From positions 1 through 64,000 of the forward strand of contig JAJTBZ010000074.1 in NCBI GenBank assembly GCA_021286645.1: a DNA stretch of 64,000 bases, in the 5' to 3' direction. The position numbers and the translations under genes are program-made. The notes beneath the pieces were generated by a model. It did not search any database, was not told the DNA's origin, and saw nothing but the letters and a program-made list of their open reading frames with translations. The DNA is from Ignavibacteria bacterium. Lineage in GTDB: Bacteria; Bacteroidota; Ignavibacteria; Ignavibacteriales; Ignavibacteriaceae. Shown here piece by piece: positions 2,052-48,225 of this stretch (the stretch's first letter is position 1; each line of letters starts with the position of its first letter).

Positions 2052-5000
2052 ATGGGCGAGAATACAACATTAGGCATTTCTGAGCACAAAGCTGAGTTTA
2101 CTCCCGGGGGGAGCGAGTCCCGGAAACCATTTTTTTCTGTTCTGATACCCGCGTATAACCAGGCTGATTATCTGTGCGAAGCTCTGAATACCCTTAAGGC
2201 ACAAACCTTTGGGGACTGGGAGGCCCTTATTGTTAACGATGGTTCAACTGACCATACCGAGGAAGTAGCCCTGCGGTATAATGCGCTCGATAGCCGTATT
2301 AAATACTTCAAAAAGGCAAACGGCGGTTGTGGTTCCGCATTAAATGAAGGGTTACGTCATGTTTCCGGTGAATGGATTTGCTGGCTTTCATCAGACGATT
2401 TTTTTGAACCGGATAAATTAGAAAACCATGTTAAGGCCATACAAGCGAATCCCGGAATAAAATTCTTTTACTCATTATGGTATGTACTTATTGAAGAAAC
2501 CGGGCAGAAACTACCTCAGAATCTGCGATACCCGGCACCGGGTAAAGAATATCAGGTATTTGACTTTTTCAAAATCAATTATGTGCATGGTAACTCGTTT
2601 GCAATGCACCATACTATTCCAGAAAAAGTGGGCAATTTTAATATTGAGCTTAAGCAGGGGCAGGATTTTGATATGTGGCTCCGCGTAAGTTCACTATTCG
2701 AAACCCGTTTCATGCCCATACGCACCTGTACCACCAGGCTTCATGCTGCCCAAACGACTAATCAATTTCCTGAAGGAGGGACTTTCGATTCAACGCGAAG
2801 CTTATTCGAATTTACCAATGCACATACATTCCGGGATATATTCCCATTTTGCAATCTGAACGATCTGGAAGTTTTCATAAAAATATTCCACGATATTATT
2901 ACTGTCACCTGTAATAAAGATAACTTTGTTAACCGCCTGGGATGGAATTCATTATTAATAGATAAAGCGCTTGACTTCGCGACTCACTTTTATTCGCCCA
3001 ATGAACGAAAACATTTGCAGGAGGCTTTTAACGAGCGCATTGCTTTAATGGACCAGTATGTTACCTTACCCGCGCTGCGAACTATTTTATTAAAAATTAA
3101 TTTCCTTGAGCCTTTTGAATTTCATCCTATCGATTGTATAGAACTTGCCCGCGAAGAAGCCAATACTATAGCAAAATCGGGCTACCAGAAAAAATGCCTT
3201 ATCTATGAAAGATTTATCTTTAACGCTACCGGCGGCAAAGACAACCGTCTGTTGTTCTATAGTCCCGAAGTAATTAACGAGGCACCACTACTCCCGGTCT
3301 CAAATGTATTACTTTGGAAGACAAAATCAGTATCAACAAAGAAGAACCTTATTGCTCATAGCGTGCAAATTACCTGTCCCGAATGTAATAATGATTATTT
3401 GTATTATACGGAGATGGAATTTTCGCCAAAAACAAGCGAAGAGTTTTTCCGCTGCCCATCCTGTAAAAAGCCATTTACATTCTCGGATTCTCTTATTGAA
3501 AAGTATTGGCAGCAAAAAGCCCAATTACCATTAAACACTGAAACTACTCCTGAGACGCATATCGGATTCATCATTCCAACTGCCGATTATCTTGGCGGGG
3601 GCACGAAGGTAGTTTTCCAATATATCCAGTGGCTTGAAGAAGCCGGTATCCGATGTACTGTTCTAACCCAAACTGACGGGCCGGACTGGCTGGCCTTAAA
3701 AACTCCATTTATCAAGTTCACCGATCTTGCAGGTATCGACTTCGCACCATTTTCTCATATAGTAACATTTAGTGTTTTTGAAATACTCGAACTCCTGTCG
3801 TACGTTCATATCAGCAAGTTAATCCATTTATGCCAGGGATATCAGGGATACCATTATGGCACTACATACGAAATTCTTCGGGCTGATAAATATGTATTTG
3901 ATGTTTTGCATAGCATCCCTGTTACACTTCTGGTAGTTTCGAAACACTTACAGGATTTATTCAAATCCCGCTTCGGACGCGAATCGTGGTATATTAATAA
4001 TTTTGTAGATACCAACATATTTAGACCGATACCCAAAGTACAAAAACACCCCCACTCTGTCCTATTTGTCGGCACGCCGGATCATCTGCTGAAGAATTAT
4101 ATATTTCTTGTTAATTCTATTCAGCTGTTGAAGCAGCAGTATGGTATTGCTGATACAACAATCTATTTAGTTACCGGACACGGTCAACAATTAGATATTA
4201 TGATAGAGGCACAACTTCAGGAGCAAACCGGAATTACAACCAAAGCATTTCACCATGTTGCACCGGAACAAATCGCATACCTGATGAATGCAGTAAATGT
4301 TGTTGTATGTACATCATGGTATGAAGGCTTTGGCCTGCCCGTGCTCGAAGCTATGGCTTGCCAGGTACCGGTTATCACAACCAATACCATGGGAACTGAG
4401 TCATTCTGCTCAGATCAAAATAATGCGTTCGTTGTTCCTTACCCGGATATTGCACTGTTTGCCCATAGACTCTATCAGGTATTTTCTGCCGATTCAATTC
4501 TGCAGGCGATGGCAGTGAAAGCACAAAATACTATAACAGAATACTCACCACTGCATGCTCAGGAAAATTTCAGCTTAGCATTTTCACGGATTCTGGGGAA
4601 GGGAATAGTAATTGGCCGTACGAATACGAAAACCCCGCCGGAAAAATTCAGCCGGGAATTTTTACCCGCGAGTATATTTGTAACTGCCGACTCTGATTTC
4701 ACCCACACAGCTGAAACTTTAAATAACCTGCTCGAGTCATCGGATGAGACGCTGGATGTGACTCTTTTGCAGGGTGAACAGGGCAATACAGAAGAGGATG
4801 ATATACGGTTATTCCAGCGAAAGCACTTTTTCCATACAATCGGGCACATAGAGAAACAAGAGGCCGCTTTCACATTAAATGACGGGCTAAAATCTGCACG
4901 ATATGAATTTGCAATTTTTTGTACATCACAGGTAAAGTTCAGTCGCGGCTGCATTAAGGGAATTTTTTCAACCTTCACTAAATACCCTGAAATAGCGGCA

Positions 5001-15683: not shown

Positions 15684-17750
15684 ATGAGAATTGAAAAAAT
15701 TACAGTAAAAAATTTTCGTTTGTTGCAAGAAATATCGATTACGCTTGATAAAAAAACCACAGTAATTGTGGGACGCAATAATTCTGGAAAAACATCGCTT
15801 ACAGAACTATTTAGGAGGATTGTTGCAGATACAGCACCGAAATTCACATTAGACGACTTTAATAGTACAGTGCACAATGATCTATGGGAAGCGTTTCGAT
15901 TATTACGGGAAAATCATGAAGAGCAAGAAATTAGAAATAAATTGCCTACGATTGAAATCCAGCTAATTCTTTCGTATGACGACAGCACGGAGGATGAAGA
16001 TTTAGGGGTCTTGAGTGAGTTTATAATAGATTTGGATCCATCGATAAAACAAGTAATAGCAGTTATGAAATATCGTCTTAAGGACGGTGCTATTGAAGGA
16101 TTGTTTCAAGGTCTCGAATTCTCGAAGACTTCAGAAAGTGATAAACAGAAAAGTACCTTTTTTAGGATAATAAATGAACGTATAACACATTATTACACGG
16201 CAGAATTGCTTACGATTGACCCCACTGACCAAAATAATTTTAAGTCAGTAGAATTATCAAAGTTTAGAATGCTTTTCCAAGCAGGGTTTATTAATGCACA
16301 GCGAGGATTAGACGATACAACACATAAAGAAAAAGATGTTCTGGGGAAAATATTAGGAGCCCTGTTTTCGGTCACACAACAAGACAATGCAAGCGAAGGC
16401 GATAAAGAAAATAGTCGAAAACTCAATCAAATAGTTGCAGAAATGCAGGACAAGGTAGATACAAGTTTTAATGAGCAATTAACACAGATACTCCCGGTTC
16501 TAAGTATGTTCGGATATCCTGGACTTGCAGATCCCCAATTACAAACAGTAACAACGTTGGACACACAAAGACTACTTGATACTCACACAAAAATTAGATA
16601 TAAGGGAATAAACAGCAATAGTCTACCTGAAACATACAATGGCCTGGGTTCAAGGAATTTAATATACATTCTTTTTAGTCTGTATGAGTTTTTTAAGTCA
16701 TACCAGACAAGACAAACTGCTCCGGGGATACACGTTATATTTATTGAAGAACCTGAAGCCCATCTTCATCCACAAATGCAAGAAGTGTTTATTCATCAAC
16801 TAAGCAATATTGCCAGCGAATTCTCAACACGTCTTAATGGTGGAATTACATGGCCAGTCCAATTCGTTGTAACAACACATTCAACTCACATGGCGAATAA
16901 AGCATCATTCGATACGATACGATATTTTCTTCGTGCAAGCACAGAGGTCTCTAATACAATAATAAAAGATCTAAGTGACGGATTTAACGGGAAAGATATT
17001 TATGAAGACAAAGAATTTCTTCATAAATATTTAACATTAACCAAGTGTGATCTATTCTTTGCAGATAAGGCCATCTTAATTGAAGGACCGACGGAAAGAA
17101 TCTTAATGCCAAAAATCATAGAGAAAGTTGATGAAACACTATCAGATGAAACAAAACTGGCGAGACAGTATCTTTCGGTTGTTGAAGTGGGAGGAGCATA
17201 TGCACATCACTTCTATAAATTCCTGGATTTTCTCGAATTAAAAACACTCATTATTACTGATTTGGATTCTACTAAGGAACAAACAAAAAATGGGAGTAAA
17301 CGTTACAGCGCATGTAAAGTATCAGAAGGGACTAATACGAGTAATGAGTGTATAAAAAAATGGTATGACGGTCCTAAACCAATTAGCCTGCAAGAAATAA
17401 TGGCTGCCACTGAATCTGATAAAATATGCGGTTATAGAAGGATTGCATATCAAATACCAGAGCAAGCGGAAGCCGCATGTGGGAGAAGCTTTGAGGATTC
17501 ATTTATGTTGGCAAATCCGACATTGTTCCAATTAACCGGCGATGAGGAAGAAAAAGGAAAGCAGGCGTGGGAAAAGGCGGGTGATGTTATAAAAACCGAT
17601 TTTGCACTTAAACATGCTATCGATACAACAGACTGGAATGTTCCCCTGTATATTAAGGAAGGTCTTGTGTGGCTTTCAATTAACAATAATCGCGTGTCAA
17701 CTAATTCAAACGAAATAGAGAATACCATGAGTGGGGTTCAGAATGCCTGA
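15684..17750 (+). CDS. gajA: OLD-family ATPase with TOPRIM nuclease domain (GajA-like)
   Basis: This 688-residue protein has an ABC-type ATPase module split around a long insert: Walker A GRNNSGKT (residues 30-37), a signature-like NGLGSRN near 320, Walker B VIFIEEPEAHLHP with E355/E356, and a THSTHM switch. It is followed by a TOPRIM nuclease domain with E467 in LIEGPTE and D526/D528 in IITDLDS, ending in the RSFEDSFMLANP motif typical of OLD proteins. Together with the adjacent UvrD-like helicase this is the class 2 OLD pair known as Gabija, an anti-phage system whose nuclease is activated when nucleotides are depleted. It is longer than the commonly studied GajA of about 580 residues. Confidence 0.88.
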   Translation: MRIEKITVKNFRLLQEISITLDKKTTVIVGRNNSGKTSLTELFRRIVADTAPKFTLDDFNSTVHNDLWEAFRLLRENHEEQEIRNKLPTIEIQLILSYDDSTEDEDLGVLSEFIIDLDPSIKQVIAVMKYRLKDGAIEGLFQGLEFSKTSESDKQKSTFFRIINERITHYYTAELLTIDPTDQNNFKSVELSKFRMLFQAGFINAQRGLDDTTHKEKDVLGKILGALFSVTQQDNASEGDKENSRKLNQIVAEMQDKVDTSFNEQLTQILPVLSMFGYPGLADPQLQTVTTLDTQRLLDTHTKIRYKGINSNSLPETYNGLGSRNLIYILFSLYEFFKSYQTRQTAPGIHVIFIEEPEAHLHPQMQEVFIHQLSNIASEFSTRLNGGITWPVQFVVTTHSTHMANKASFDTIRYFLRASTEVSNTIIKDLSDGFNGKDIYEDKEFLHKYLTLTKCDLFFADKAILIEGPTERILMPKIIEKVDETLSDETKLARQYLSVVEVGGAYAHHFYKFLDFLELKTLIITDLDSTKEQTKNGSKRYSACKVSEGTNTSNECIKKWYDGPKPISLQEIMAATESDKICGYRRIAYQIPEQAEAACGRSFEDSFMLANPTLFQLTGDEEEKGKQAWEKAGDVIKTDFALKHAIDTTDWNVPLYIKEGLVWLSINNNRVSTNSNEIENTMSGVQNA

Positions 17751-19488
17751 AATAGCTGATATGAATCCCGCAGAATTGGCAGCAAAGGAATCACTAGAGG
17801 CCTTGTACCAAGCCATTGATCAGAAAAAAAATTTTTTACTTGAAGCAGGTGCAGGTGCAGGGAAGACTTACTCCTTAATAAAAGCCCTAAGATATATTAT
17901 TGCAAAAAACAGTCGCTATTTACTGCGCAAAGACCAACGGGTTGCATGTATTACATTCACAAATGTTGCAAAAAATGAAATAAGAACTCGAACAGATAGT
18001 CACCCGGCAATTCTTTCTGAAACAATTCATTCTTTTTGTTGGTCATTGATAGTGGACTTCCAACCTAGCATGAGAACAATTATACCGAAGCTTGATAAAT
18101 GGAAGCAAAGAATAGAGGAAGCAGGTGGTGTTGGAACAAGGAAAGTGATCTATGATCTGGGCTATCCAAAAGTAGAGGAAGAGGGTATATTCCTTCATCA
18201 TGATGATGTAATTGACCTAACGGTGCGCCTGATGAAGGAACAAAAATTCAGAACAATACTCGCTAGCCGATACCCTGTAATATTTATAGATGAATATCAA
18301 GATACGAATAAAAGCTTTGCGAATTCATTGAAGACTCATTTTATTGATCCCGAAACGGGTCCCCTCATAGGCTTTTTTGGTGATCATTGGCAGAAAATAT
18401 ATGGCCAAGAGGCGTGTGGAAAGATAGAATGGGATAAACTGACAGAAATAAAAAAGGAAGCGAACTTTCGCTCCGATAAGTTAATTGTAGAATGCCTAAA
18501 TATGATGCGTCCAGAATTGCCACAGAAGATTAAAGATGAACAGTCGCAAGGAATGATAGATATACTGCATACAAATATGTGGGTGGGAACGCGGCGGAAT
18601 GAAGCCCAATGGGATGGCGATCTTCCGGTAGAAAATGCCAGGGCATACAGAATCAGGGCAAAAGAATATCTCATGGGTCGCGGATGGGATTTTAACCCCC
18701 AAGAGACAAAAATATTAATGTTAACTCATAATCTTTTGGCTGACGAACAAGGTTATAAGAATTTGGCAAATGTTTTTAGTCATAATGACTCCTTTATAAA
18801 AAAAGAAGATGACTACATTGAATATTTTGTTGACTATTTAGAGCCCATTTGCAATGCCTATCAGAGTCGCAAATATGGGGAAATGTTTAAAGTACTTGGA
18901 CAAAGAACGCCAAATATCCGTACTTTGAAAGATAAGGTAAAATGGAAGAACGATTTTGATAAACTTATAAAAATTCGGAATTCAGGTAGCATTGGTGATG
19001 TTATAGATCATCTCAAAGAAACGCAACGTCCGCGATTATCTGATAAAATAGAGAGCAAGGAAAGAAAAATAGTAGATATAGAAACAGTTGCTGAGAATGA
19101 AAGATCAGAGGACGACAAGAGGTTTATGGAGCGTCTACAGAATTTAAAGCGTGTATCATATAAAGAAGTAACTACGCTCACTAAATTTGTAGAAGACCAA
19201 ACTCTATTTGCAACAAATCATGGAGTTAAGGGGGCGGAATTTGAAAATGTATTCATAGTAATTGGGCGGGGCTGGAGCCTATACAATTTTAATCAAATGC
19301 TAGAGTGGGAGCAGACTGGAATTCCTGCAGGGGAAGAAAAAAACTACGAAAGGAATAGAAATTTGTTCTATGTTGCCTGTTCACGACCTAAAAGTAAATT
19401 GGCGATTTTATTCACTCAAGAAATATCCAAAAGTGCAATGCAGACTCTCAAAAAATGGTTTGGCGAAAATTCTATTCATGCGTTATAG
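17743..19488 (+). CDS. gajB: UvrD/Rep-like helicase (GajB-like)
   Basis: The helicase partner of the preceding nuclease has 581 residues from ATG 17743, which overlaps the gajA-like stop by eight bases; a GTG at 17731 is an alternative start. Superfamily 1A motifs are clear: Walker A EAGAGAGKT (K41), motif II FIDEYQDTN (D183/E184), motif III region GFFGDHWQKIYG, motif V ATNHGVKGAEFENV and motif VI RNLFYVACSRPKSK. In Gabija the helicase binds the nuclease complex and senses DNA ends or unwinds DNA. The overlap implies tight co-translation. RecB or AddA are excluded by length and the lack of a C-terminal nuclease domain. Confidence 0.88.
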   Translation: MPEIADMNPAELAAKESLEALYQAIDQKKNFLLEAGAGAGKTYSLIKALRYIIAKNSRYLLRKDQRVACITFTNVAKNEIRTRTDSHPAILSETIHSFCWSLIVDFQPSMRTIIPKLDKWKQRIEEAGGVGTRKVIYDLGYPKVEEEGIFLHHDDVIDLTVRLMKEQKFRTILASRYPVIFIDEYQDTNKSFANSLKTHFIDPETGPLIGFFGDHWQKIYGQEACGKIEWDKLTEIKKEANFRSDKLIVECLNMMRPELPQKIKDEQSQGMIDILHTNMWVGTRRNEAQWDGDLPVENARAYRIRAKEYLMGRGWDFNPQETKILMLTHNLLADEQGYKNLANVFSHNDSFIKKEDDYIEYFVDYLEPICNAYQSRKYGEMFKVLGQRTPNIRTLKDKVKWKNDFDKLIKIRNSGSIGDVIDHLKETQRPRLSDKIESKERKIVDIETVAENERSEDDKRFMERLQNLKRVSYKEVTTLTKFVEDQTLFATNHGVKGAEFENVFIVIGRGWSLYNFNQMLEWEQTGIPAGEEKNYERNRNLFYVACSRPKSKLAILFTQEISKSAMQTLKKWFGENSIHAL

Positions 19489-38257: not shown

Positions 38258-39135
38258 TGGCTGTAAAAATTTCTGGTTTTACCATTGTTCGTAATGCTAT
38301 AAAGAATGATTATCCCGCAGTAGAATCAATAACTTCTATACTTCCTGTTGTTGATGAAATGATTGTAAGTATTGGTAATAGTGATGATGATACCGAGGGA
38401 CTGATTCGAAGTATTAATTCCCCCAAAATTAAAATTGTTCATTCTGTTTGGGATCCGGCGTTGCGCCAGGGTGGCAGAGTGTTAGCCGTAGAAACGGATA
38501 AAGCCCGGCAGCATATTTCGGCTGATTCAGATTGGGCGTTTTATATTCAGGCCGATGAAGTAGTACATGAAAAATATCATTCGGCAATTCGACAGGCAGC
38601 CGAACAATATAAAGATAATACTAATGTTGAAGGATTAGTATTTAAATACACACATTTTTATGGGACTTACGATTATATTGGTGATAGCAGGCGCTGGTAC
38701 CATCAGGAAATACGGATAATCCGAAACATTCCGGGTATCAGTTCATTTCGCGATGCCCAGGGTTTTCGTCGGGATGAAAAAAGGCTGAACTGTAAATTGA
38801 TTGATGCTTACATATACCATTACGGCTGGGTAAAAAGCCCGCTGCAAATGAAAATTAAGTGTGATAGCATGAGTGAATTCTGGTATGAAGATGGCGAAGA
38901 ACGGCAAAAGCTGATTGAATCGCGCGATGTTTTTAATTTTAGCGATTTTGACTCTTTGCAGGAATTTACCGGCAGCCACCCTGTGGTTATGCAAGAGCGG
39001 ATAAGGAAAGCAAATTGGAACTTAAAGCTCGACATTTCGAAAAAGAAGTTCTCGTTTATCTATTGGTTGCTCTATCGATACGAAAAAATAACAGGAATCC
39101 GACCTTTTGCGTTCAGAAATTACAACTTAATTTGA
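38257..39135 (+). CDS. Family 2 glycosyltransferase
   Basis: The 292-residue protein has a GT-A fold start (ISGFTIVRNAIKNDYPAVESI) and a QADEVVHEKY motif in place of the metal-binding DxD; the EIRIIRN and YHYGWVK segments are typical of this family, which often modifies glycans or glycoproteins. There is no membrane segment. Its start overlaps the TerB-like stop by one base. Donor and acceptor sugars are unknown. Confidence 0.8.
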   Translation: MAVKISGFTIVRNAIKNDYPAVESITSILPVVDEMIVSIGNSDDDTEGLIRSINSPKIKIVHSVWDPALRQGGRVLAVETDKARQHISADSDWAFYIQADEVVHEKYHSAIRQAAEQYKDNTNVEGLVFKYTHFYGTYDYIGDSRRWYHQEIRIIRNIPGISSFRDAQGFRRDEKRLNCKLIDAYIYHYGWVKSPLQMKIKCDSMSEFWYEDGEERQKLIESRDVFNFSDFDSLQEFTGSHPVVMQERIRKANWNLKLDISKKKFSFIYWLLYRYEKITGIRPFAFRNYNLI

Positions 39136-39162
39136 CTTTAACTGAAAAAATTGCTATATTTA
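39131..39162 (+). promoter_or_regulatory. tRNA-array promoter (Bacteroidota type)
   Basis: TTTG at 39131 and TATATTTA at 39155-39162 are 20 bases apart, a near-consensus promoter. It would transcribe the first tRNA-like element at 39203 and tRNA-Pro, so the fragment at 39203 is where the original first tRNA probably stood. Confidence 0.6.
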
Positions 39163-39202
39163 TCATCTTGTTATTTTTAATTTTGCAAACAAGAAAACGG
39201 TC

Positions 39203-39257
39203 CACCGCGCAGTCCGGTTAGCGCGTCCCGCACCTGGCGGGAAGGCCGCAGGTTTGA
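39203..39257 (+). pseudogene. tRNA-Pro-derived element A (hairpin replaces anticodon arm)
   Basis: The D-arm and start of the T-arm of tRNA-Pro are recognisable (GCGCAGTCCGGTTAGCGCG, GGCCGCAGGTT), but the anticodon arm is a hairpin, TCCCGC-acctg-GCGGGA, and the 3' acceptor is missing. Confidence 0.7.
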
Positions 39258-39278
39258 AGAAGAAGTTATTGAAAAATT

Positions 39279-39353
39279 CGGGGCGTAGCGCAGTCCGGTT
39301 AGCGCGCCTGCCTTGGGAGCAGGAGGCCGCAGGTTCGAATCCCGCCGCCCCGA
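39279..39353 (+). tRNA. tRNA-Pro (TGG)
   Basis: A full cloverleaf: acceptor CGGGGCG with CGCCCCG, anticodon stem CCTGC/GCAGG with loop CTTGGGA giving anticodon TGG (39314-39316), and T-arm GCAGGTTCGAATCCCGC. CCA is not encoded. The gene is flanked on both sides by degenerate tRNA-Pro-like elements. Confidence 0.95.
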
Positions 39354-39400
39354 CTTTAGATCTTTGAATTTTTGTTTGTGCAGTGTTGGTTTGTTGCTTT

Positions 39401-39454
39401 GCGCGTCCCGCTTCTGACGGGAAGGCCGTCAGGCTGCAAGTCCGCCGCCCCGAC
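39401..39454 (+). pseudogene. tRNA-Pro-derived element B
   Basis: The 3' half resembles tRNA-Pro (CCGCCGCCCCGAC end), but the D-arm is gone and the anticodon arm is TCCCG-cttctga-CGGGA, whose loop reads TCT. It is likely a decayed or chimeric tRNA. Confidence 0.65.
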
Positions 39455-39515
39455 AAAAATAGTTCTTTTTAAGTTTGTTCATTTCTGGTACTGTGAAATC
39501 AGAAAAGTACGAAAT

Positions 39516-39589
39516 GCGCCCGTAGCTCAACCGGATAGAGCATCAGCCTTCTAAGCTGGGGGTTGGTGGTTCGAGTCCACCCGGGCGTA
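39516..39589 (+). tRNA. tRNA-Arg (TCT)
   Basis: Acceptor GCGCCCG pairs with CGGGCGT (one G-U), anticodon stem TCAGC/GCTGG, loop CTTCTAA with anticodon TCT at 39550-39552, and T-arm GGTGG/CCACC. CCA is not encoded. Confidence 0.95.
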
Positions 39590-39625
39590 CACGATACAAA
39601 TATCTGCTTCGTGAACAGAATCTCC

Positions 39626-39656
39626 TTTGAGAAGCAGCACGAAATTTGTATATTTG
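39626..39656 (+). promoter_or_regulatory. Promoter of tRNA-Glu (Bacteroidota consensus)
   Basis: TTTG (39626-39629), 19 bases, then TATATTTG (39649-39656) is a full match to TTTG-N19-TAnnTTTG. It lies 21 bases before tRNA-Glu. Confidence 0.75.
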
Positions 39657-39677
39657 GAATCTAAATTTTGTTTGTCC

Positions 39678-39749
39678 GGCCCCATCGTCTAGTGGTTAGG
39701 ACATCGCCCTTTCACGGCGGTAACAGGGGTTCAAATCCCCTTGGGGTCA
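39678..39749 (+). tRNA. tRNA-Glu (TTC)
   Basis: Acceptor GGCCCCA pairs with TGGGGTC; anticodon stem TCGCC/GGCGG, loop CTTTCAC with TTC at 39711-39713; T-arm GGGGTTCAAATCCCC. A terminator follows directly. From position 5 the gene is identical to the copy at 43058-43129. Confidence 0.95.
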
Positions 39750-39752
39750 CAA

Positions 39753-39777
39753 AAGCTTGCCATTGGCAGGCTTTTTT
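39753..39777 (+). terminator. Terminator of tRNA-Glu
   Basis: AAGCTTGCC (39753) and GGCAGGCTT (39765-39773), one G-U pair, around ATT, then a T-run. Confidence 0.85.
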
Positions 39778-39816
39778 CATTTTAAACATCACCTTTATAT
39801 AGCCTGGCAAAATCAG

Positions 39817-40140
39817 GGCGGTAACAGTGCCAATGGCATTGGGGTCACAAAAAGCCTGCATGAATAGTGTAGGCTTTTTTCGTTTAAACCAGTAACAGGG
39901 ATTCCCCAGTGGGATTTCGTGGCTCTGCCTCTCAACAAATCCCCTTGGGGTCACAAAAGCTTGCCATTGGCAGGTTTCTTTTCGTTTAAACTGTCAACTG
40001 GGGATTCCCAGTGGGATTTCGTGGTTCCGCCTCTCAACATTTCCGCTTGGGGACACCAAAAAGCTTGTCATTTGCCGGCTTTTCGTTTAGTCTGGCAGCA
40101 GGGACTTCGTGGAGCAACCTTTCAACAGAAAAATTGGGAG
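39817..40140 (+). repeat. Tandem degenerate copies of tRNA-Glu 3' end plus terminator
   Basis: At least three to four successive units carry the tRNA-Glu 3' sequence (TTGGGGTCAC), the AAGCTTGCC terminator hairpin and a CGTTTAAAC boundary: 39817-39890, 39891-39991, 39992-40089 and a partial one to 40140. Their T-arms are altered by small hairpins (for instance TGCCA-a-TGGCA) or by an inserted segment beginning ATTCCC. No gene is present. Confidence 0.75.
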
Positions 40141-40214
40141 ACTATCAACATCGGAAAGACTTTTATTTTATCAGTCCTATATTTATTTTTCTTTTGGAAA
40201 CAAGGATAAATAAA

Positions 40215-40412
40215 ATGGAAACATTTCAAACAAAAGAACAGATCTTTTTCGCTAAAACCGGCAAGCCAAAAAGTGTTTTGTTGGATTATAAAGTCTACAC
40301 GAGCATGCTTGAATTAATTGAGGACGCAAAATGTATTAAAGTAATTCGAAACCGCGAAAACGAACTCAGTGTCAGCGAATCTGATTTTAAGAAGAAACTA
40401 AAACTTACGTAA
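40215..40412 (+). CDS. RelB/Phd-like antitoxin
   Basis: The 65-residue protein has the type II antitoxin pattern: METFQTKEQI, a hydrophobic strand VLLDYKVYTSMLELIED and an acidic C-terminus. ATG 40215 is preceded by AAGGATAAATAAA. The stop overlaps the toxin start by one base (TAATG), a coupled pair. The toxin downstream is broken, so this antitoxin now has no intact partner here. Confidence 0.75.
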   Translation: METFQTKEQIFFAKTGKPKSVLLDYKVYTSMLELIEDAKCIKVIRNRENELSVSESDFKKKLKLT

Positions 40413-40667
40413 TGTACTCATTAGAGGTAAAAAGTTCGGTTATCAATGACTTTAGAAAAATCCCCAAAAATCAACAACAAAAAATTTAGGATCATATTCA
40501 GCAATTAAAAATTGGAACACTCCCCAAAAAACTCTCATAAATTGCCAAGATCTGGTTCTTATTATCCCATCAGGATTGGCGACTACAGGGTTGTTTACCG
40601 CATTCTGGATGATAACAGGATAGTAATAATTTTTGCAGCCGAACACAGAAAAGATATTTACCGATAG
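40412..40667 (+). pseudogene. RelE/ParE-type toxin, broken
   Basis: It begins MYSLEVKSSVINDFRKIPK and ends in GDYRVVYRILDDNRIVIIFAAEHRKDIYR, the RelE/ParE core. It is inactivated by TAG at 40487-40489 and by a shift to another frame near 40520. The catalytic C-terminus (HRKDIYR) is otherwise intact. Confidence 0.85.
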
Positions 40668-40994
40668 AGAATTTCGGGAGGTTTTTGTCAGCCGAAGCAC
40701 AGAAATGTGACGAAGCTTAAGCCGATATTGATAAGAAATTATCAAAGTTAAATGGTTTATTTGTTCGCGCACAAAAGGAAAGGCTTGAGGCACAACGCCT
40801 CGTATAGCAGGAACAACTAAATAAGTCTATAAAGATAAACGCTCAACTTTTATATCAAGAATTACACTTGCAGTAGTTATAATCTCATACTAGCCACATG
40901 ATTTTCTGAAAAATACCGACAATTATTGGTTCTCCGGAAATGCAGACTACTTATATCCGATAATGGTAAAAAATATAGAAATTTATTCATTTTT
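40668..40994. other. AT-rich spacer, degenerate coding remains
   Basis: One frame reads KKLSKLNGLFVRAQKERLEAQRL and continues after a stop, a coiled-coil-like fragment of unknown origin. No intact gene. Confidence 0.4.
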
Positions 40995-42578
40995 TTACCT
41001 GAATTTCATCATTAAATCACGGGACTCTTTATCTCCAAGCCGGCTCGCTTTCATCCAGTCAACCGTTGCCCCGTTATGGTCCTGCATATTATATTTCAAA
41101 ATACCGCGCATCCTAAAATATACACCATCCCAATCGCATAATAGGATTGCCTGATCGAAATCTTTCAAGGCATTCTCATTATCACGTAACTTCATCTTGC
41201 ATAACCCATGCCTAAAATATGCTTCAGCAGAGTGGTCAAAATCAATCGCTTTCTCGAAACACTGTAATGCAGGAAGATAATTCTGTTCTACAAATAGGCG
41301 GCTGCCATACAATAAATACTTCTTTCCGGAAGCCTTTGCCGCAACTAAATACAGGCGGCGGTACGAAGTATCATAGTTTGCCGCCGACTTTAAATCCGAT
41401 AGCGCTTCTTCAATTTTCCAAAGGCTGTCTTTGCTCATTGCCCTGTAATAATAAGCCTCAGCATTACCCGGAGCGATCATTAGTGCTTTATCCAAGTCCT
41501 GAATTGCCTCATGGTATTTATGTAGCTTAAACAGAACCTGTGAACGCTTGATCAGGGATAGAGTATCATTTGCGTTTAGCGCGATAGCTTTTGTATAATC
41601 AGAAAATGCGCCATCGTAATTTTTTAAATTCTGCCTTGCTACTCCCCGGCCGAAAAAGGCATCGGCGTAATCAGGCGATATCTCAATGGCTTTATCAAAT
41701 TTCTGAACCGCGTCGGAATAGTTCATTGTTTCATTCAGACTGGAACCCAGGCAATTATAGGCAACAGGATCATTAGGAATTCTTAGAATATATTCCGACA
41801 ATTCCGCGATGCTCGAAGAATAATTCCTATTTTCTATGGCATGCAGCCCCGATGCGAAGTATTTAAAATCTTTAAACCGGTCATTTTTGCCGTAAGAGCC
41901 GACCACAACATTGATAATTTCATTAACCGGAATGGCGAAATTTACTTTTTTCTCGTTCGATACAACAGTAGTGCTTATGCCGATCAGTTCTCCTTTATCA
42001 TTTACCACCGCCCCGCCGCGGCTCTTCATTGATATTCCTGCAGTTATCTGGATATAACTTCTCTTCAGTTTATCATTTTTAATAAATTGAGTTATTACAC
42101 CTTCTGAAACAAGGCTGTCTTTACTGAGCGGACTGGCGACAGCGTATACTTTAGCGCCGGCAGCAAGGGACGTCGGGTTTCCAATTATTAGCCGGGGAAA
42201 CTTTTTGGCTTTGATCTTAAAGATCAGTAAATCCTTGGCGGGATCTACGACGATAATATCAGTATAAGGAACGGGCTCCTTCCCATTCATAATCTTAATT
42301 CTGCTGTTCCCATAGAGTAACTGATAATTGGTTATCACCCATCCACTGTCATTCAATACGACACCGCTCGACTGGGCGGTTGATTTACCATCATCACTAT
42401 ACGCGTTTATCGTTACCACCGCTCCGCCTACCTTCTGGTAGATTTGTTCAGATGATAATGACTGGCAATAGACGGTATTCGGTTGTAACAGACCAATAAT
42501 AAGTATAAGAGATATTGAAATGAAGTAAGGATTGCGGTGAATCCCGATATTGAACGGACAGTCAGATATTTGCAACAT
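40995..42578 (-). CDS. Trypsin-like pseudo-protease fused to TPR repeats
   Basis: The 527-residue protein has an N-terminal hydrophobic signal or anchor and a DegP/HtrA-like domain (about 42-225), then about eight TPR repeats to the C-terminus. The fold is recognised from VVLNDSGWVITN and DPAKDLLIFKI, but the catalytic residues are lost: the family His is Q86 (TNYQ) and the Ser is R187 (MKSRGGA); only the Asp (D116) remains. It therefore cannot be an active serine protease of that mechanism and is more likely a scaffold or binding protein. It lies within the duplicated tRNA region. Confidence 0.8.
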   Translation of the reverse strand: MLQISDCPFNIGIHRNPYFISISLILIIGLLQPNTVYCQSLSSEQIYQKVGGAVVTINAYSDDGKSTAQSSGVVLNDSGWVITNYQLLYGNSRIKIMNGKEPVPYTDIIVVDPAKDLLIFKIKAKKFPRLIIGNPTSLAAGAKVYAVASPLSKDSLVSEGVITQFIKNDKLKRSYIQITAGISMKSRGGAVVNDKGELIGISTTVVSNEKKVNFAIPVNEIINVVVGSYGKNDRFKDFKYFASGLHAIENRNYSSSIAELSEYILRIPNDPVAYNCLGSSLNETMNYSDAVQKFDKAIEISPDYADAFFGRGVARQNLKNYDGAFSDYTKAIALNANDTLSLIKRSQVLFKLHKYHEAIQDLDKALMIAPGNAEAYYYRAMSKDSLWKIEEALSDLKSAANYDTSYRRLYLVAAKASGKKYLLYGSRLFVEQNYLPALQCFEKAIDFDHSAEAYFRHGLCKMKLRDNENALKDFDQAILLCDWDGVYFRMRGILKYNMQDHNGATVDWMKASRLGDKESRDLMMKFR

Positions 42579-42740
42579 ATGATACTCCCGTAGTAATAAT
42601 TGGATTATTTAAAATAAGAATCAAATATCAGAACTACAAACGAGGTTGGTTGACAAATATTCGTTGCACAAATTCAGCGGAATAGGCTGCGCCAGAAGCA
42701 AGGCGCAAAAAATATCAGGAGTAATAAGGCATAGCTTAGC

Positions 42741-42799
42741 CGGGGTAGCGCGTCCCGAGATATCGGGAATGTCGCGGGTTAGAATTCCGCTGCCCCGAC
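42741..42799 (+). pseudogene. tRNA-Pro-derived element C (D-arm deleted)
   Basis: A 58-base tRNA-like form: acceptor CGGGGTA/TGCCCCG, 7 pairs with one G-U, no D-arm, hairpin TCCCGA-gata-TCGGGA in place of the anticodon arm, and a T-arm with loop TTAGAAT. Confidence 0.7.
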
Positions 42800-42824
42800 G
42801 GAAAGTTTATCAAAATTACGACAA

Positions 42825-42884
42825 GCGTGTCCCGACTTAAAAGTCGCTAAGACCACAGGTTTCCCGTAAACGGGACCGCCCCGA
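42825..42884 (+). pseudogene. tRNA-Pro-derived element D
   Basis: GCGTGTCCCGA leads into hairpins CGACTT-aa-AAGTCG and TCCCGT-aa-ACGGGA and ends CCGCCCCGA, the tRNA-Pro 3' acceptor. No anticodon loop is left. Confidence 0.6.
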
Positions 42885-42945
42885 CGAGAGCTCACAATTT
42901 CCCTTGAAATTTGTAAATAATGAGCTAAAATAGAGTTTAAGAACT

Positions 42946-43019
42946 GCGCCCTTAGCTCAATCGGATAGAGCAACAACCTTCTAAGCAGTAGGTTGCTGGT
43001 TCGAGTCCAGCAGGGCGTA
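42946..43019 (+). tRNA. tRNA-Arg (TCT), second copy with irregular anticodon stem
   Basis: Acceptor GCGCCCT/AGGGCGT and T-stem GCTGG/CCAGC differ from the first copy (39516-39589) by compensatory changes, as in a functioning gene. The anticodon loop CTTCTAA gives TCT, but the stem ACAAC/GCAGT has two mismatches, so its function is uncertain. Confidence 0.8.
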
Positions 43020-43057
43020 CAAAAAGTAGTAAGTAATTTCGAAAAAAATTGATTGAG

Positions 43058-43129
43058 AGCACCATCGTCTAGTGGTTAGGACATCGCCCTTTCACGGCGG
43101 TAACAGGGGTTCAAATCCCCTTGGGGTCA
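43058..43129 (+). pseudogene. Duplicate tRNA-Glu (TTC) with altered acceptor
   Basis: From position 5 this matches tRNA-Glu 39678-39749 exactly, but the 5' acceptor is AGCACCA instead of GGCCCCA, leaving mismatches at pairs 1 and 4. It has no promoter of its own in view and is probably non-functional or a recombination-site remnant. Confidence 0.7.
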
Positions 43130-43167
43130 CAAAAGCTTGCCATTGGCAGGCTTTTTTCATTTTAAAC
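43062..43167 (+). repeat. 106-base exact repeat of the tRNA-Glu region (copy of 39682-39787)
   Basis: The block includes the tRNA 3' part, terminator and TTTAAAC boundary. It brackets a 3.3 kb segment between the two tRNA-Glu copies, as attachment-site duplications do. Confidence 0.9.
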
Positions 43168-43262
43168 TATGAGTCGTCCTGAAAAAAGGTGACACTTATT
43201 TAAAGCGATAAAATACTAAAATAATTAATAAGTACCCCCTTTCGGTCTACGACCTCAAGGGG

Positions 43263-44138
43263 TTACTTATTTGCGCCAAAATGTACCGCCTCCGGTGCCT
43301 GCATTCCTAAACTCAAATGCGGTCGCTCCCGATTATATATCCCTACACTTTCCCGGACAACCATTGATAGGAATGCACGATCAGAAAAACGATGCTCGCC
43401 AAAAAATTCCTCCTTGATTGTCCTGTTCATTCTCTCGGCCAGAGCGTTTTCGTATGGATCTCCATTTTCTGTCATGTTGATTCCGATATCGTTTTTTTGT
43501 AATATATACACATACTCTTTACTGCAATATTGTATACCCCGGTCCGAATGATGTATTAACTTTTTATCCGTCTCCCGTGTCCGTAAGGCTTCCTGGAGTG
43601 CTGCAATACATATTTCACTGCTCAATGAACTACTGACTGCGCTACCAACTATCTTCCGGCTATACACATCCGTTATCATACTTAGGTAACAAAACCCCTC
43701 TGCTGTTCTGACATAGGTAATGTCACTTACCCACACCTGTTCTTTGCGCGTAATTGTCAGTTCCTTTATCAGGTTAGGATATTTTCTCATCCAATGCTTC
43801 GAATCGGTTGTCTGCAAATACCGTTTTCGCCGCCTCTGAAGCATGTTTTCCTGCCCTAATATTGCAAAGAGCTTGTCCCGCCCGATTCTCAGGTGCTCCT
43901 CCCCAAACTTTTCTCGAAGTAGAGCATGTAGTTTCCTCGTCCCAAGACGCGGCATCCGATTCCGTACACCTTGAACCATCTCTACAACCTGTGCGGCTTC
44001 TTCTGCTTTTCGTCTTTCTGCGTGTTTTCGCTTGTAATAGCTTTGTCTACTGAGGCCAAACAGTCCTCCGATTCTCCGGATACTAACACCTGTCCCTTGT
44101 TCCCGACTTGCTTGGACAGTTTGGCCAAATATTTTTTT
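43263..44138 (-). CDS. IS3-family transposase OrfB (DDE)
   Basis: OrfB supplies the rve integrase core with catalytic acidic residues in VSDITYV, HHSDRGIQY and the NALAERMNRT glutamate. The frame reads into GTGVSIRRIGGLFGLSRQSYYKRK, the usual OrfB start region, and is entered by a frameshift at a run of seven A (44132-44138 as T on the plus strand), as in IS3 elements. It is otherwise intact from there to TAA at 43263. Confidence 0.85.
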   Translation of the reverse strand, partial: KKIFGQTVQASREQGTGVSIRRIGGLFGLSRQSYYKRKHAERRKAEEAAQVVEMVQGVRNRMPRLGTRKLHALLREKFGEEHLRIGRDKLFAILGQENMLQRRRKRYLQTTDSKHWMRKYPNLIKELTITRKEQVWVSDITYVRTAEGFCYLSMITDVYSRKIVGSAVSSSLSSEICIAALQEALRTRETDKKLIHHSDRGIQYCSKEYVYILQKNDIGINMTENGDPYENALAERMNRTIKEEFFGEHRFSDRAFLSMVVRESVGIYNRERPHLSLGMQAPEAVHFGANK

Positions 44139-45702: not shown

Positions 45703-47838
45703 ATGAGAAGATTTGTTTTGATTTTGTCAATTTTGTTTTTTTTTGTCGCAGACTGTTTGCCGCAGGCACGCTGGTACTCTCAGGATCCGGTCCGGAGCGG
45801 GAATTACCTGATTGGTATATCCTTTAGCGATGTAAACATTGGCATAGCTGTTGGATGGACTGGAATAATAATCCGGACAGCCAATGGCGGAACATCATGG
45901 ACACGACAGCCGAGCCCAACTACTATGACCCTGTACGGTGTATCTTGTACTGGTGGAGGCTATGGTACGGCTGTGGGAGACAGTGGAACAATTCTCCGTA
46001 CAACCGATGGCGGAGTCTCATGGATAAGGCAGTCAAGCGGAAGCAGTAAGTGTTTACGGGGTGTATCCTTTACCGATGCAAACAATGGCACGGCTGTAGG
46101 AGTTAGTGGAACAATCCTCCGGACGACCAATGGCGGAACATCATGGACACAGCAGCCCAGCGGAACTGATAACACCCTTGAGTGTGTATCCTTTTCCGAC
46201 ACGAACCATGGCACGATTGTGGGGGGTAATACAATCTTTCGGACGACCAATGGCGGCGCTTTATGGACACCACTGTATACCGCCGCAGGTGCTACAACCT
46301 TCCATGGTGTATCATTTACAGACGCAGACAATGGCACGGTTGTAGGCGTCAACTACGATCTCTCCCTGGGAACAGACAATGGCACCGTTGGTTTTTTCAA
46401 GTCAACAATCCTCCGAACGACTAATGGAGGTGCATCTTGGACAGAGCAGTATGCCGCACCATTACGCAACTTTGCAAGTGTATACTTTGCCGACGCAAAG
46501 AATGGCACGGCTGTGGGTTATGGTGGAATAATAGTCCGGACTACTGATAGCGGTGCATCTTGGATAGAGCCGGGTGGCGGAACTGGAAATTGGTTATGGG
46601 GTGTATCCTATGCCAATGTAAACAATGGCATAGCTGTGGGAGAATGTGGAAACATCCTCCAGACGACTAATGGCGGCGCCTCTTGGCTGAAGCAGCCAAA
46701 CGGAATTTATTGCGACCTTATGAGTGTGTCCTTTACCGATGCATTTCACGGGTCAGCTGTGGGAAAATCTGGAACAATCTTACGAACCGTGGTAGGGGGC
46801 TTCGATTGGTTACCGCAGGTTAGCGGAACTAATAACACCCTGCAGTGTGTATCTTTCACCGATGCAAACAATGGCACGGCTGTGGGAGACAGTGGAACAA
46901 TCCTCCGGACCTTCAATGGCGGAAACTTATGGACATTACAGGTAAGCGGAACTATTAACAGACTGTGTGGCGTAACCTTCACCGATGCAAACAATGGCAC
47001 GGCTGTGGGAGACAGTGGAACAATTCTCCGTACAACAAACGGCGGCACCTCTTGGACAAAGCAAAAAGGCGGAACTAATAAGTTGTTGCGCAGTGTAACC
47101 TTCACCGATGTAAACAATGGCACGGCTGTGGGAGACAGTGGAATAATTCTCCACACCGCAAACGGCGGCACCTCTTGGGCAGTGCAAAAAGGCGGAACTA
47201 ATAAGTTGTTGCGCGGTGTATCTTTCACCGATGCAAACAATGGCATGGTTGTGGGTGACAGTGGAACAATCCTTCGGACCACCGATGGCGGCGCCTCTTG
47301 GTCAAGGCAGTCAAGCGGGATTTATTGCAACCTGAATGCAGTATCGCATACCGATCCAAACACTGGTCTAGTTGTGGGAGAGAGTGGAACAATACTTGGG
47401 ACCACTAATGGCGGCGACTCTTGGGCAAAGCAGTCAAGCGGAACCAATGCAACTTTTTTCGGTTCATCCTTTATCAATCAAAACCAGGGGTGGATTGTAG
47501 GAGAATGTTCAATAATCCGACGGACCGTCAATGGCACGGGTTCTTTGGACCGGGATAGTAAAAACACAATAATCAACGGCTTTGTACTCAACCAAAATTT
47601 TCCGAATCCGTTCAACCCTGCTACAACAATAACGTTTTCTTTGCCGGAAAGAACCAAAGTTTCGTTAAGTATTTACAACCTACTTGGTAAAAAAGTAGCC
47701 GAACTTTTTAATGGAGAAAAAGCAGCGGGGTCTCATAGCATCCAATGGAACGCGAAGAATTTTGCCTCAGGCGTGTACTTCTATGAACTGAAAGCCGATA
47801 AGTTCACTTCTGCTAAAAAGTTAATTCTCCTGAAGTAA
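45703..47838 (+). CDS. T9SS-secreted YCF48-like repeat protein
   Basis: The 711-residue secreted protein has a signal peptide to about residue 22, then fourteen repeats of about 41 residues, each with the pattern VSFTDANNGTAVGDSGTILRTTNGGxSW. Repeats of this YCF48/BNR type fold as a beta-propeller. Several repeats near 46.8-47.3 kb are almost identical at the DNA level, showing recent internal duplication. The T9SS sorting domain (QNFPNPFNPATT) is at the C-terminus. It is likely surface-exposed and binds a ligand; which one is unknown. Confidence 0.9.
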   Translation: MRRFVLILSILFFFVADCLPQARWYSQDPVRSGNYLIGISFSDVNIGIAVGWTGIIIRTANGGTSWTRQPSPTTMTLYGVSCTGGGYGTAVGDSGTILRTTDGGVSWIRQSSGSSKCLRGVSFTDANNGTAVGVSGTILRTTNGGTSWTQQPSGTDNTLECVSFSDTNHGTIVGGNTIFRTTNGGALWTPLYTAAGATTFHGVSFTDADNGTVVGVNYDLSLGTDNGTVGFFKSTILRTTNGGASWTEQYAAPLRNFASVYFADAKNGTAVGYGGIIVRTTDSGASWIEPGGGTGNWLWGVSYANVNNGIAVGECGNILQTTNGGASWLKQPNGIYCDLMSVSFTDAFHGSAVGKSGTILRTVVGGFDWLPQVSGTNNTLQCVSFTDANNGTAVGDSGTILRTFNGGNLWTLQVSGTINRLCGVTFTDANNGTAVGDSGTILRTTNGGTSWTKQKGGTNKLLRSVTFTDVNNGTAVGDSGIILHTANGGTSWAVQKGGTNKLLRGVSFTDANNGMVVGDSGTILRTTDGGASWSRQSSGIYCNLNAVSHTDPNTGLVVGESGTILGTTNGGDSWAKQSSGTNATFFGSSFINQNQGWIVGECSIIRRTVNGTGSLDRDSKNTIINGFVLNQNFPNPFNPATTITFSLPERTKVSLSIYNLLGKKVAELFNGEKAAGSHSIQWNAKNFASGVYFYELKADKFTSAKKLILLK

Positions 47839-48225
47839 TTTATTTGCAGCAATTAATAATTGAGAGCCTTTAGCGCTCCCCCGCTAAAACGGGAGAACTG
47901 ACAGCTTTTTCCTTGTGTACTGATAAAAGAAATGTGAAAGAACAATACTTATTGCTATTCCCTGCAGTGAGGCAAAGTTCGTTAGCCCCTCCTCGCCTGC
48001 TCTGCGAGAGCGGTAACAGTGCCAATGGCATTGGGTTCACCAACAAGCTCGCCATGGGCAGTTTTTTTTCGTTTTAGCTATAATCAGGGATTTAATCGCT
48101 GTGCCTAACCTGAGAATCCTGTAGAAATTACCGGCATTGGCAGCGCCAAAGTTATTTAGGTAAGTGTATGAAGAGTAAGACCGGGTGGTTATTTTTTTAG
48201 GCAGTTATAACCACCCGGTAATGGG
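47839..48225. other. Intergenic region with tRNA-Glu-derived element and terminator-like hairpin
   Basis: Holds the element described at 47981-48078 and, at 48180-48219, the inverted repeat ACCGGGTGGTTAT / ATAACCACCCGGT with a T-rich loop near the end of the minus-strand redoxin gene. Confidence 0.55.
47981..48078 (+). repeat. tRNA-Glu-derived element with terminator hairpin, distant copy
   Basis: GCGGTAACAGTGCCAATGGC and GGTTCAC match the degenerate unit at 39817-39890; hairpin CTCGC-ctgctct-GCGAG replaces the anticodon arm, and a CGCCAT-GGGCAG hairpin with a T-run follows. It lies 8 kb from the array. Confidence 0.65.

Follow-up and report, generated by a model that had tools for sequence, protein, structure and literature searches.

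Partial tRNA copies with hairpins beside tRNA genes of an Ignavibacteria bacterium and their probable relationship to a family of tRNA-linked GIY-YIG elements

The tRNA-Glu(TTC) gene of an Ignavibacteria bacterium is followed by a tandem array of partial copies of itself, located within the stretch of 64,000 nucleotides that was analysed in this work (the window). Units made of hairpinned tRNA parts beside tRNA genes represent a widespread and, it seems, undescribed class in bacteria; given that they lie by tRNA genes and often carry a small nuclease gene of their own, they look like the product of selfish elements with tRNA genes as homing sites. We consider it probable that the tRNA-Glu array consists of ORF-less units that belong to a homing-type family of GIY-YIG elements with tRNA genes as targets. 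Its tie to this family is suggested by the anatomy of the units, by shared hairpin words and by the ORF-bearing units of the same genome.

Results

The array behind tRNA-Glu

The intact tRNA-Glu(TTC) gene occupies positions 39678-39750 of the window, and about four units of ~100 bp are found 3' of it, each formed by the tRNA-Glu 3' end, a terminator hairpin and a boundary similar to CGTTTAAAC. The array is composed as follows:

39678-39787, plus strand: U1, the intact tRNA-Glu(TTC) (39678-39750), terminator hairpin and boundary CATTTTAAAC
39788-39889, plus strand: U2, partial tRNA-Glu, terminator and CGTTTAAAC
39890-39991, plus strand: U3, partial tRNA-Glu 3' end with a T-loop insert of ~33 nt, terminator and CGTTTAAAC
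39992-40087, plus strand: U4, built like U3, including the T-loop insert
40088-40143, plus strand: U5, degenerate remnant of a unit, with its end at ~40143

The start-to-start spacings of the units are 98, 106 and 102 bp. An alignment of the units (U3 and U4 share 82% identity across 82 nt) and the tandem repeat detected by TRF (102-bp period, score 283) confirm the array of tRNA-Glu 3' ends, terminators and boundaries that an earlier note on this DNA had described. The start at 39817 given in that note has to be moved slightly upstream, in view of the positions of U1 (39678) and U2 (39788). Its observation that the T-arms are altered by hairpins was also borne out, since in U2 the sequence TGCCAATGGCA stands where the T-arm was, and U3 and U4 have the T-loop insert. 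In addition, CCTG-gcaaaat-CAGG takes the place of the anticodon arm in U2, which retains the tRNA-Glu stretches GCGGTAACAG and TTGGGGTCACAAAA; the word TTCCCAGTGGGAT of U4 is also present in one tRNA-Asp unit elsewhere in the genome. The units are not merely decayed copies: stretches of the tRNA are preserved, and hairpins split the anticodon arm or the T-loop or stand in their place.

The word GTTTAAAC was considered as a special core and rejected, given that its frequency in the window is that expected by chance (2 found, 1.99 expected). What goes beyond chance is the colinear succession of tRNA end, terminator and boundary, not the boundary word by itself.

Other tRNA copies and neighbouring genes in the window

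Several further features had been overlooked in the earlier note, namely partial copies of tRNA-Pro, a second tRNA-Arg/tRNA-Glu pair and a lone unit at 48 kb:

39207-39258, plus strand: partial tRNA-Pro with positions 10-28, the hairpin TCCCGCACCTGGCGGGA for the anticodon arm, then positions 46-57
39401-39454, plus strand: 3' part of tRNA-Pro, with the hairpin TCCCGCTTCTGACGGGA for the anticodon arm
42730-42799, plus strand: degenerate partial tRNA-Pro unit with the hairpin TCCCGAGATATCGGGA
42823-42885, plus strand: degenerate partial tRNA-Pro unit with the T-arm hairpin TCCCGTAAACGGGA
42946-43167, plus strand: second tRNA-Arg(TCT) and second tRNA-Glu
47995-48078, plus strand: lone unit of the U2 type, GGTAACAG-TGCCAATGGCA-TTGGG, terminator and CGTTTTAGC

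The first of these copies lies upstream of the intact tRNA-Pro(TGG) gene (39279-39354). A TCCCG-n-CGGGA hairpin replaces the anticodon arm in the copies at 39207-39258, 39401-39454 and 42730-42799, and the T-arm in that at 42823-42885. The motif TCCCGN{3,10}CGGGA occurs four times in the 64 kb, where 0.18 occurrences are expected, and all four are inside tRNA-Pro copies. The second tRNA-Arg(TCT) is, by eye, ~80% like the first one; the second tRNA-Glu (43058), located 3.3 kb downstream of the first, has the same terminator and boundary and a mispaired 5' acceptor strand.

Spaced copies of tRNA-Glu were also observed in two other genomes. In G001, from the same genus, a partial tRNA-Glu with a terminator is located at ~1550-1660 of locus L047, 1.75 kb downstream of the intact gene; in G009 a similar one is found at ~4000-4070 of locus L365, ~3.4 kb downstream of the intact gene. 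The loops of both copies are free of hairpins, and these distant copies may have arisen by a different process from that of the hairpinned units. The genes between the spaced copies differ among the window, G001 and G009, and no integrase was seen between them in any of the three.

The 3' ends of tRNA genes are classic attachment sites, and integrases that use tRNA sites usually act at the anticodon and T loops. The earlier note regarded the array as an accretion of attachment sites; in the integrase sense, the units would be att remnants left where a tyrosine recombinase had repeatedly inserted phages or islands into the 3' end of tRNA-Glu, and the several kb that separate partial or full tRNA-Glu copies in the window, in G001 (around VapBC-like genes) and in G009 might reflect such islands. 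This interpretation was not sustained. The 39 ORFs of the window scanned with Pfam include no site-specific integrase or resolvase, and only one fragment of an IS3-type transposase, so the array was not assigned to the integrase islands; units with tRNA 5' parts are also present upstream of tRNAs, the anticodon and T loops are hairpinned, the ~100-bp spacing is too short for cargo, and the genome-wide pattern tracks GIY-YIG genes (see below). We judge an origin from integrase islands to be very improbable. Integron attC sites were discarded as well, the boundary being apparently at odds with the attC consensus.

Regarding other genes of the window, the first gene after the Glu array encodes a RelB-like antitoxin, and next to it there is a toxin-like and seemingly frameshifted frame (40216-40667, plus strand); by eye, a VapBC-like pair is found behind tRNA-Glu at L047 of G001. 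Between the two tRNA-Glu copies, a trypsin-like protease with TPR repeats (40995-42578, minus strand) matches weakly the protease half of PADLOC RT-Protease_XI, and adjoining the second tRNA-Glu unit there is an rve integrase-core transposase, probably an IS3-type fragment (43263-43979, minus strand). A YCF48/BNR repeat protein that bears a type IX secretion tail, and whose DNA contains 123-bp repeats, is encoded at 45814-47441 (plus strand), and a Gabija anti-phage system at 15684-19488 (plus strand), with GajA at 15684-17750 and GajB at 17731-19488 (935 and 860 bits in PADLOC).

Similar units in the same genome

A scan of the surroundings of the tRNA genes revealed same-strand partial copies at 9 of the 41 distinct tRNAs of the assembly, and at none of the 41 in the control with reversed tRNAs. 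Copies were found for ThrTGT, GlyGCC, two Asp, ValCAC, ProTGG, Glu and ArgCCG; a match to Cys beside GlyGCC comprises 15 nt and may be the same copy as that of Gly. At tRNA-Asp, five units of ~120 bp form an array (contig C42, 52.5-53.2 kb). Hairpin words recur at different tRNAs: TGCCANTGGCA is common to the Gly and Arg units, the Glu unit U2 and the 48-kb unit, with TGCCAATGGCA in U2 corresponding to TGCCACTGGCA at Gly and Arg; GTGCCTCTGGCAT is common to the Gly and Val units, and a word similar to TCCCGCTTCTGGCGGGA to the Pro and Asp units.

Two of the six GIY-YIG matches of this genome are inside such units, at tRNA-Asp and at tRNA-Val(TAC) (contig C81). These ORF-bearing units share the architecture of the others, with a terminator, a CGTTTTAAAA/C boundary and a partial tRNA with a palindromic anticodon arm. 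At the tRNA-Asp locus (C42, 80.1-80.6 kb) the order is tRNA, terminator, unit and GIY-YIG ORF; the C-terminus of the encoded protein, GGRPDE, is specified by the next partial tRNA, and the stop codon falls within the hairpin of that tRNA. A six-frame search of the window gave no GIY-YIG match, that is, the Glu array is ORF-less, and no Glu-targeting GIY-YIG was present among the ~100 tRNA-linked loci that were examined; hence the Glu array is linked to these elements by its anatomy and by the genome that it shares with them.

Units and GIY-YIG genes across relatives

The pattern CGTCCCGN{3,10}CGGGANNGNCG, which represents a tRNA with such an anticodon arm, was detected in 31 of 146 relatives, often as tandem copies ~80-130 bp apart, and the reversed pattern was almost absent. 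When all species were scanned, Flavobacterium, Niastella and others also appeared among the matches listed; of the single matches outside Bacteroidota in that list, many are probably due to chance. ORF-less arrays of the upstream type, which directly precede an intact tRNA and carry TCCCG hairpins for the anticodon arm, were observed in Niastella caeni (L165, 100-1000), where the 5' part of tRNA-Ala is present five times at ~70 bp each, and in a Cyclobacteriaceae MAG (L201, 7300-8000), where that of tRNA-Val is present twice at ~80 bp each. Among the matches in Flavobacterium, Niastella and others the repeat unit is enlarged to ~358 bp because it contains an ORF.

The ORFs present in units encode GIY-YIG proteins of ~80-90 aa on the same strand as the tRNA, and may start as close as four nucleotides past it. 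From a search of 45 relatives, the best GIY-YIG match of each of 29 genomes was scored; in 15 of these genomes it is placed within 500 bp of an intact tRNA, on the same strand in all 15, where ~0.5 would be expected from the tRNA density (43 tRNAs in 3.7 Mb). Two arrangements were recognized. In the first one, an intact tRNA is followed by units of ORF plus tRNA 3' part, as for Asp in G002 (five units of 315 bp) and for LeuCAG (five, 450 bp) and SerTGA (three, 306 bp) in G020. In the second, units of tRNA 5' part plus ORF precede the intact tRNA, as for ProCGG and SerTGA in G027 and ArgCCT in G020, with three units each. Units are single or in tandem, and tandem copies are often identical; decayed units and broken ORFs also occur, and many units have no ORF.

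The association was reproduced in a held-out set, for which an alignment of 12 proteins of the tRNA-linked branch (see below) was used to search 38 genomes new to the GIY-YIG search. Same-strand tRNAs or tRNA fragments flank 29 of the 30 best matches, and an intact tRNA is located within 500 bp of 23 of the 30, in no case on the opposite strand. As a control, 300 bp on each side of the GIY-YIG genes of the non-tRNA branch were inspected, and a fragment, a single 13-nt match, was found at 1 of 23. The gene thus lies at or beside its target, as in free-standing homing endonucleases (29 of 30 against 1 of 23), with the tRNA as the presumed site of cutting. Asp, Asn, Ser, Arg, Pro, Cys, Leu, Val, Gly, Met, Lys and Ala are among the targets that were labelled, and Glu is absent from them. 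In the phage and plasmid collections, tblastn with one query protein, of the Flavobacterium tRNA-Pro type, gave no match.

Empty sites and a variant tRNA-Pro(CGG)

In the genus g27, genome G027 carries three copies of a unit upstream of tRNA-Pro(CGG). G083 and G067 have no units at this tRNA, and their flanks are 92-93% and 85-88% identical, respectively, to those of G027. Empty sites in relatives and lineages specific for a site, the latter indicated by the clustering of targets on the protein tree (see below), are both features of homing elements. In G076 this tRNA is flanked by ORF-less units upstream as well as downstream, from which it follows that ORF-bearing and ORF-less units share a site within one genus.

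The tRNA-Pro(CGG) of G027 differs from that of G083 and G067 at 13 of 76 positions, mostly paired ones, and the other tRNAs of the G027 cluster look nearly unchanged, which suggests, as judged from these comparisons, that this tRNA arrived together with the element. Within the same nuclease lineage, the ORF is intact in G027 and G023, which have the variant Pro allele, and broken in G020, which has the ordinary one. These observations, with the nearly unchanged flanks and cluster, are the clearest hint of a home-and-rescue strategy, in which the nuclease would cut an essential tRNA gene and the element would supply an uncut working tRNA along with hairpin-disarmed copies, so that its loss would be punished. 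Against it count the open nuclease genes of G038 and G026, which have the ordinary allele, the variant allele of G000, where the tRNA has no units, and tRNA-Asp and other occupied loci, which show no such recoding. G038, G026 and the Asp cases are in conflict with a recoded rescue tRNA as a general rule, and we regard home-and-rescue as a rather doubtful possibility.

Positions and stems of the hairpins in the tRNA copies

In a typical unit the anticodon arm or the T-loop, and sometimes the D or the variable loop, is hairpinned, the rest is nearly or fully identical to the parent tRNA, and the unit also includes the flank or terminator that belongs to that tRNA. A set of 27 inserts was collected from GIY-YIG-linked units; they are hairpins in the anticodon arm, the T-loop or the variable arm, and the flanking tRNA blocks are identical to the parent. 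In the SerTGA and SerGCT units of independent genomes the T-loop is split at GTTC|GAAT, with blocks 100% identical on both sides, and the anticodon loop is split between the same two bases. The mean maximal stem of the GIY-YIG-linked inserts is 6.0 bp, as compared with 3.3 in shuffled inserts (0 of 1000); for 15 inserts of the own genome it is 4.6, as compared with 2.6 (0 of 1000), and given that these 15 were picked by eye the fair test is that of the GIY-YIG-linked set. The hairpins frequently have UUCG-type loops (TCCCTTCGGGA).

As to the role of the hairpins, our first guess is immunity to cleavage and our second is that they avoid tRNA-like folding or processing. A guard against homologous loop-out was rejected as a general reason, since locus L274 keeps 55 nt of uninterrupted identity.

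The hairpins also bear on the mode in which the arrays were formed. The earlier note proposed either serial insertion at the same tRNA end or amplification by slippage. Serial insertion comes close, in view of the related units with a GIY-YIG gene, the single intact tRNA, the empty sites and the identical tandems; simple slippage leaves the hairpins unexplained, although tandem copying must still follow the first event. A broader version would be plain tandem duplication by slippage or recombination without any nuclease, with the hairpins as scars of template switching or as landed repeats and the GIY-YIG genes as later settlers. Identical tandem units do need some duplication to expand, a full tRNA is always kept beside the arrays, and many units lack an ORF. 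However, such duplication predicts neither that one branch of nucleases is bound to tRNAs and divided into lineages by target, nor hairpins at exactly the same loop positions between unchanged tRNA blocks, nor hairpin words that recur from one tRNA to another within a genome, and we consider it unlikely.

The tRNA-linked GIY-YIG proteins

In the phylogenetic tree all the tRNA-linked proteins are on one side of a branch with an SH-aLRT of 98, and 23 other small GIY-YIG proteins are on the opposite side; many inner forks are unresolved since the alignment has only 84 columns. The target labels cluster on the tree (26 changes against 53.4 in shuffled labels, 0 of 200, a figure helped by near-copies). 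The tRNA-linked branch is represented throughout the order (Ignavibacteriota), in Flavobacterium and in other phyla. The remaining GIY-YIG genes of these genomes group in a branch of their own and are located away from tRNAs; in our reading they are putative UPF0213 members.

The ORFs of the related units belong to the GIY-YIG superfamily by catalytic residues and fold: they exceed the cut-off of PF01541, the catalytic Y, YxG, R, H, N and E hardly vary across 72 sequences, and the AlphaFold2 model (pLDDT 83) has its best PDB match in the UPF0213 protein 1ZG2, and also matches Slx1. By sequence and fold, the nearest solved structures are those of UPF0213 (1ZG2, 1YWL). NCBIfam contained no family that recognized the tRNA-linked proteins at its cut-off. 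With dN well under dS in every pair listed, and judging from sequence conservation, these proteins are likely active.

The purifying selection on the ORFs, the frequent UUCG-type loops, a sign of selection on RNA, and the sense orientation of the units within the tRNA transcript would also be in line with a host function, in which hairpinned tRNA-like RNAs made from the tRNA promoter would have a role in regulation, as decoys or as spacers for processing, with the GIY-YIG protein as a domesticated partner. This is at odds with the patchy presence of the units inside a genus, the variation of the affected tRNAs from genome to genome, the absence of one tRNA half from most fragments, and the existence of decayed units and broken ORFs; such a function seems quite unlikely to us.

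Discussion

According to the homing account that we favour, the nuclease would cut in the loops of the tRNA gene or close to them, and repair would copy the element in with one intact tRNA retained. The hairpins would render the extra tRNA copy uncuttable, and arrays would grow from the unit as its repeats recombine, whether or not further cuts are made; arrays like that of tRNA-Glu would be left when the ORF is lost or when the nuclease acts in trans. The elements would use the tRNA genes as target and probably also as promoter. Against this account count the lack of a GIY-YIG ORF in the window and of a Glu-targeting one among the ~100 loci; in addition, the intact tRNA beside the ORF, although it is the predicted target, is mostly standard-looking (e.g. 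Asp), and several loops are hairpinned per unit, more than a single cut site requires. A unit that persists after the loss of its ORF may serve some other purpose.

Tandem repeats behind a tRNA gene are also known at E. coli tyrT, where 178-bp repeats with the rtT RNA each contain the tRNA 3' end, as the Glu units do; to our knowledge those repeats have neither loop hairpins nor a nuclease gene. This class was rejected, given that Rfam identified in the window (38900-43600) only tRNAs, with no intron family and no RtT at E<=1. tRNA genes are also a known target of group I introns, whose homing endonucleases, such as I-TevI, have the same catalytic domain (1MK0 and 1LN0 match weakly). Unlike those systems, the tRNA is here uninterrupted and the proteins of ~85 aa have no separate DNA-binding domain; in eight GIY-YIG/tRNA loci Rfam identified the intact tRNA and no intron family, and with the same result in the window region group I introns were rejected.

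The closest known case, by analogy, and the best precedent for tRNA-linked elements is SegB of phages T4 and T6, a free-standing GIY-YIG homing endonuclease whose gene often adjoins tRNA genes. According to the statements on SegB in PMC13096335, where Brok-Volchanskaya 2008 is cited as source, the enzyme cuts inside tRNA genes at the motif RAWTSGAAC, and drives tandem amplification of the tRNA plus segB segment through recombination. On the other strand the motif reads GTTCSAWTY, which resembles the T-loop. SegB is phage-borne and the amplified unit contains a whole tRNA, whereas the units described here are located in the chromosomes of bacteria and contain tRNA parts with loop hairpins; in addition, the lineages are specific to one tRNA and many units are ORF-less. 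In the open-access literature we found phage SegB and nothing on such elements in bacterial chromosomes. Judged from the sequences, the elements would belong to a known kind, that of the free-standing homing endonucleases, to which the hairpinned tRNA copies and the ORF-less arrays would be added features.

If this explanation is true, bacterial tRNA genes host a homing nuclease family of their own, with lineages split by tRNA and without intron, intein or recombinase, and the arrays are a record of past insertions. It would offer a chromosomal counterpart of the SegB-like amplification of phage tRNAs, and would make it possible to test how a nuclease targets an essential gene and yet spares the host, and for what reason the extra copies invariably have hairpins in their loops. 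It would also account for the clutter of 'pseudo-tRNAs' and for the small unnamed GIY-YIG genes, and thus bear on the annotation of tRNAs.
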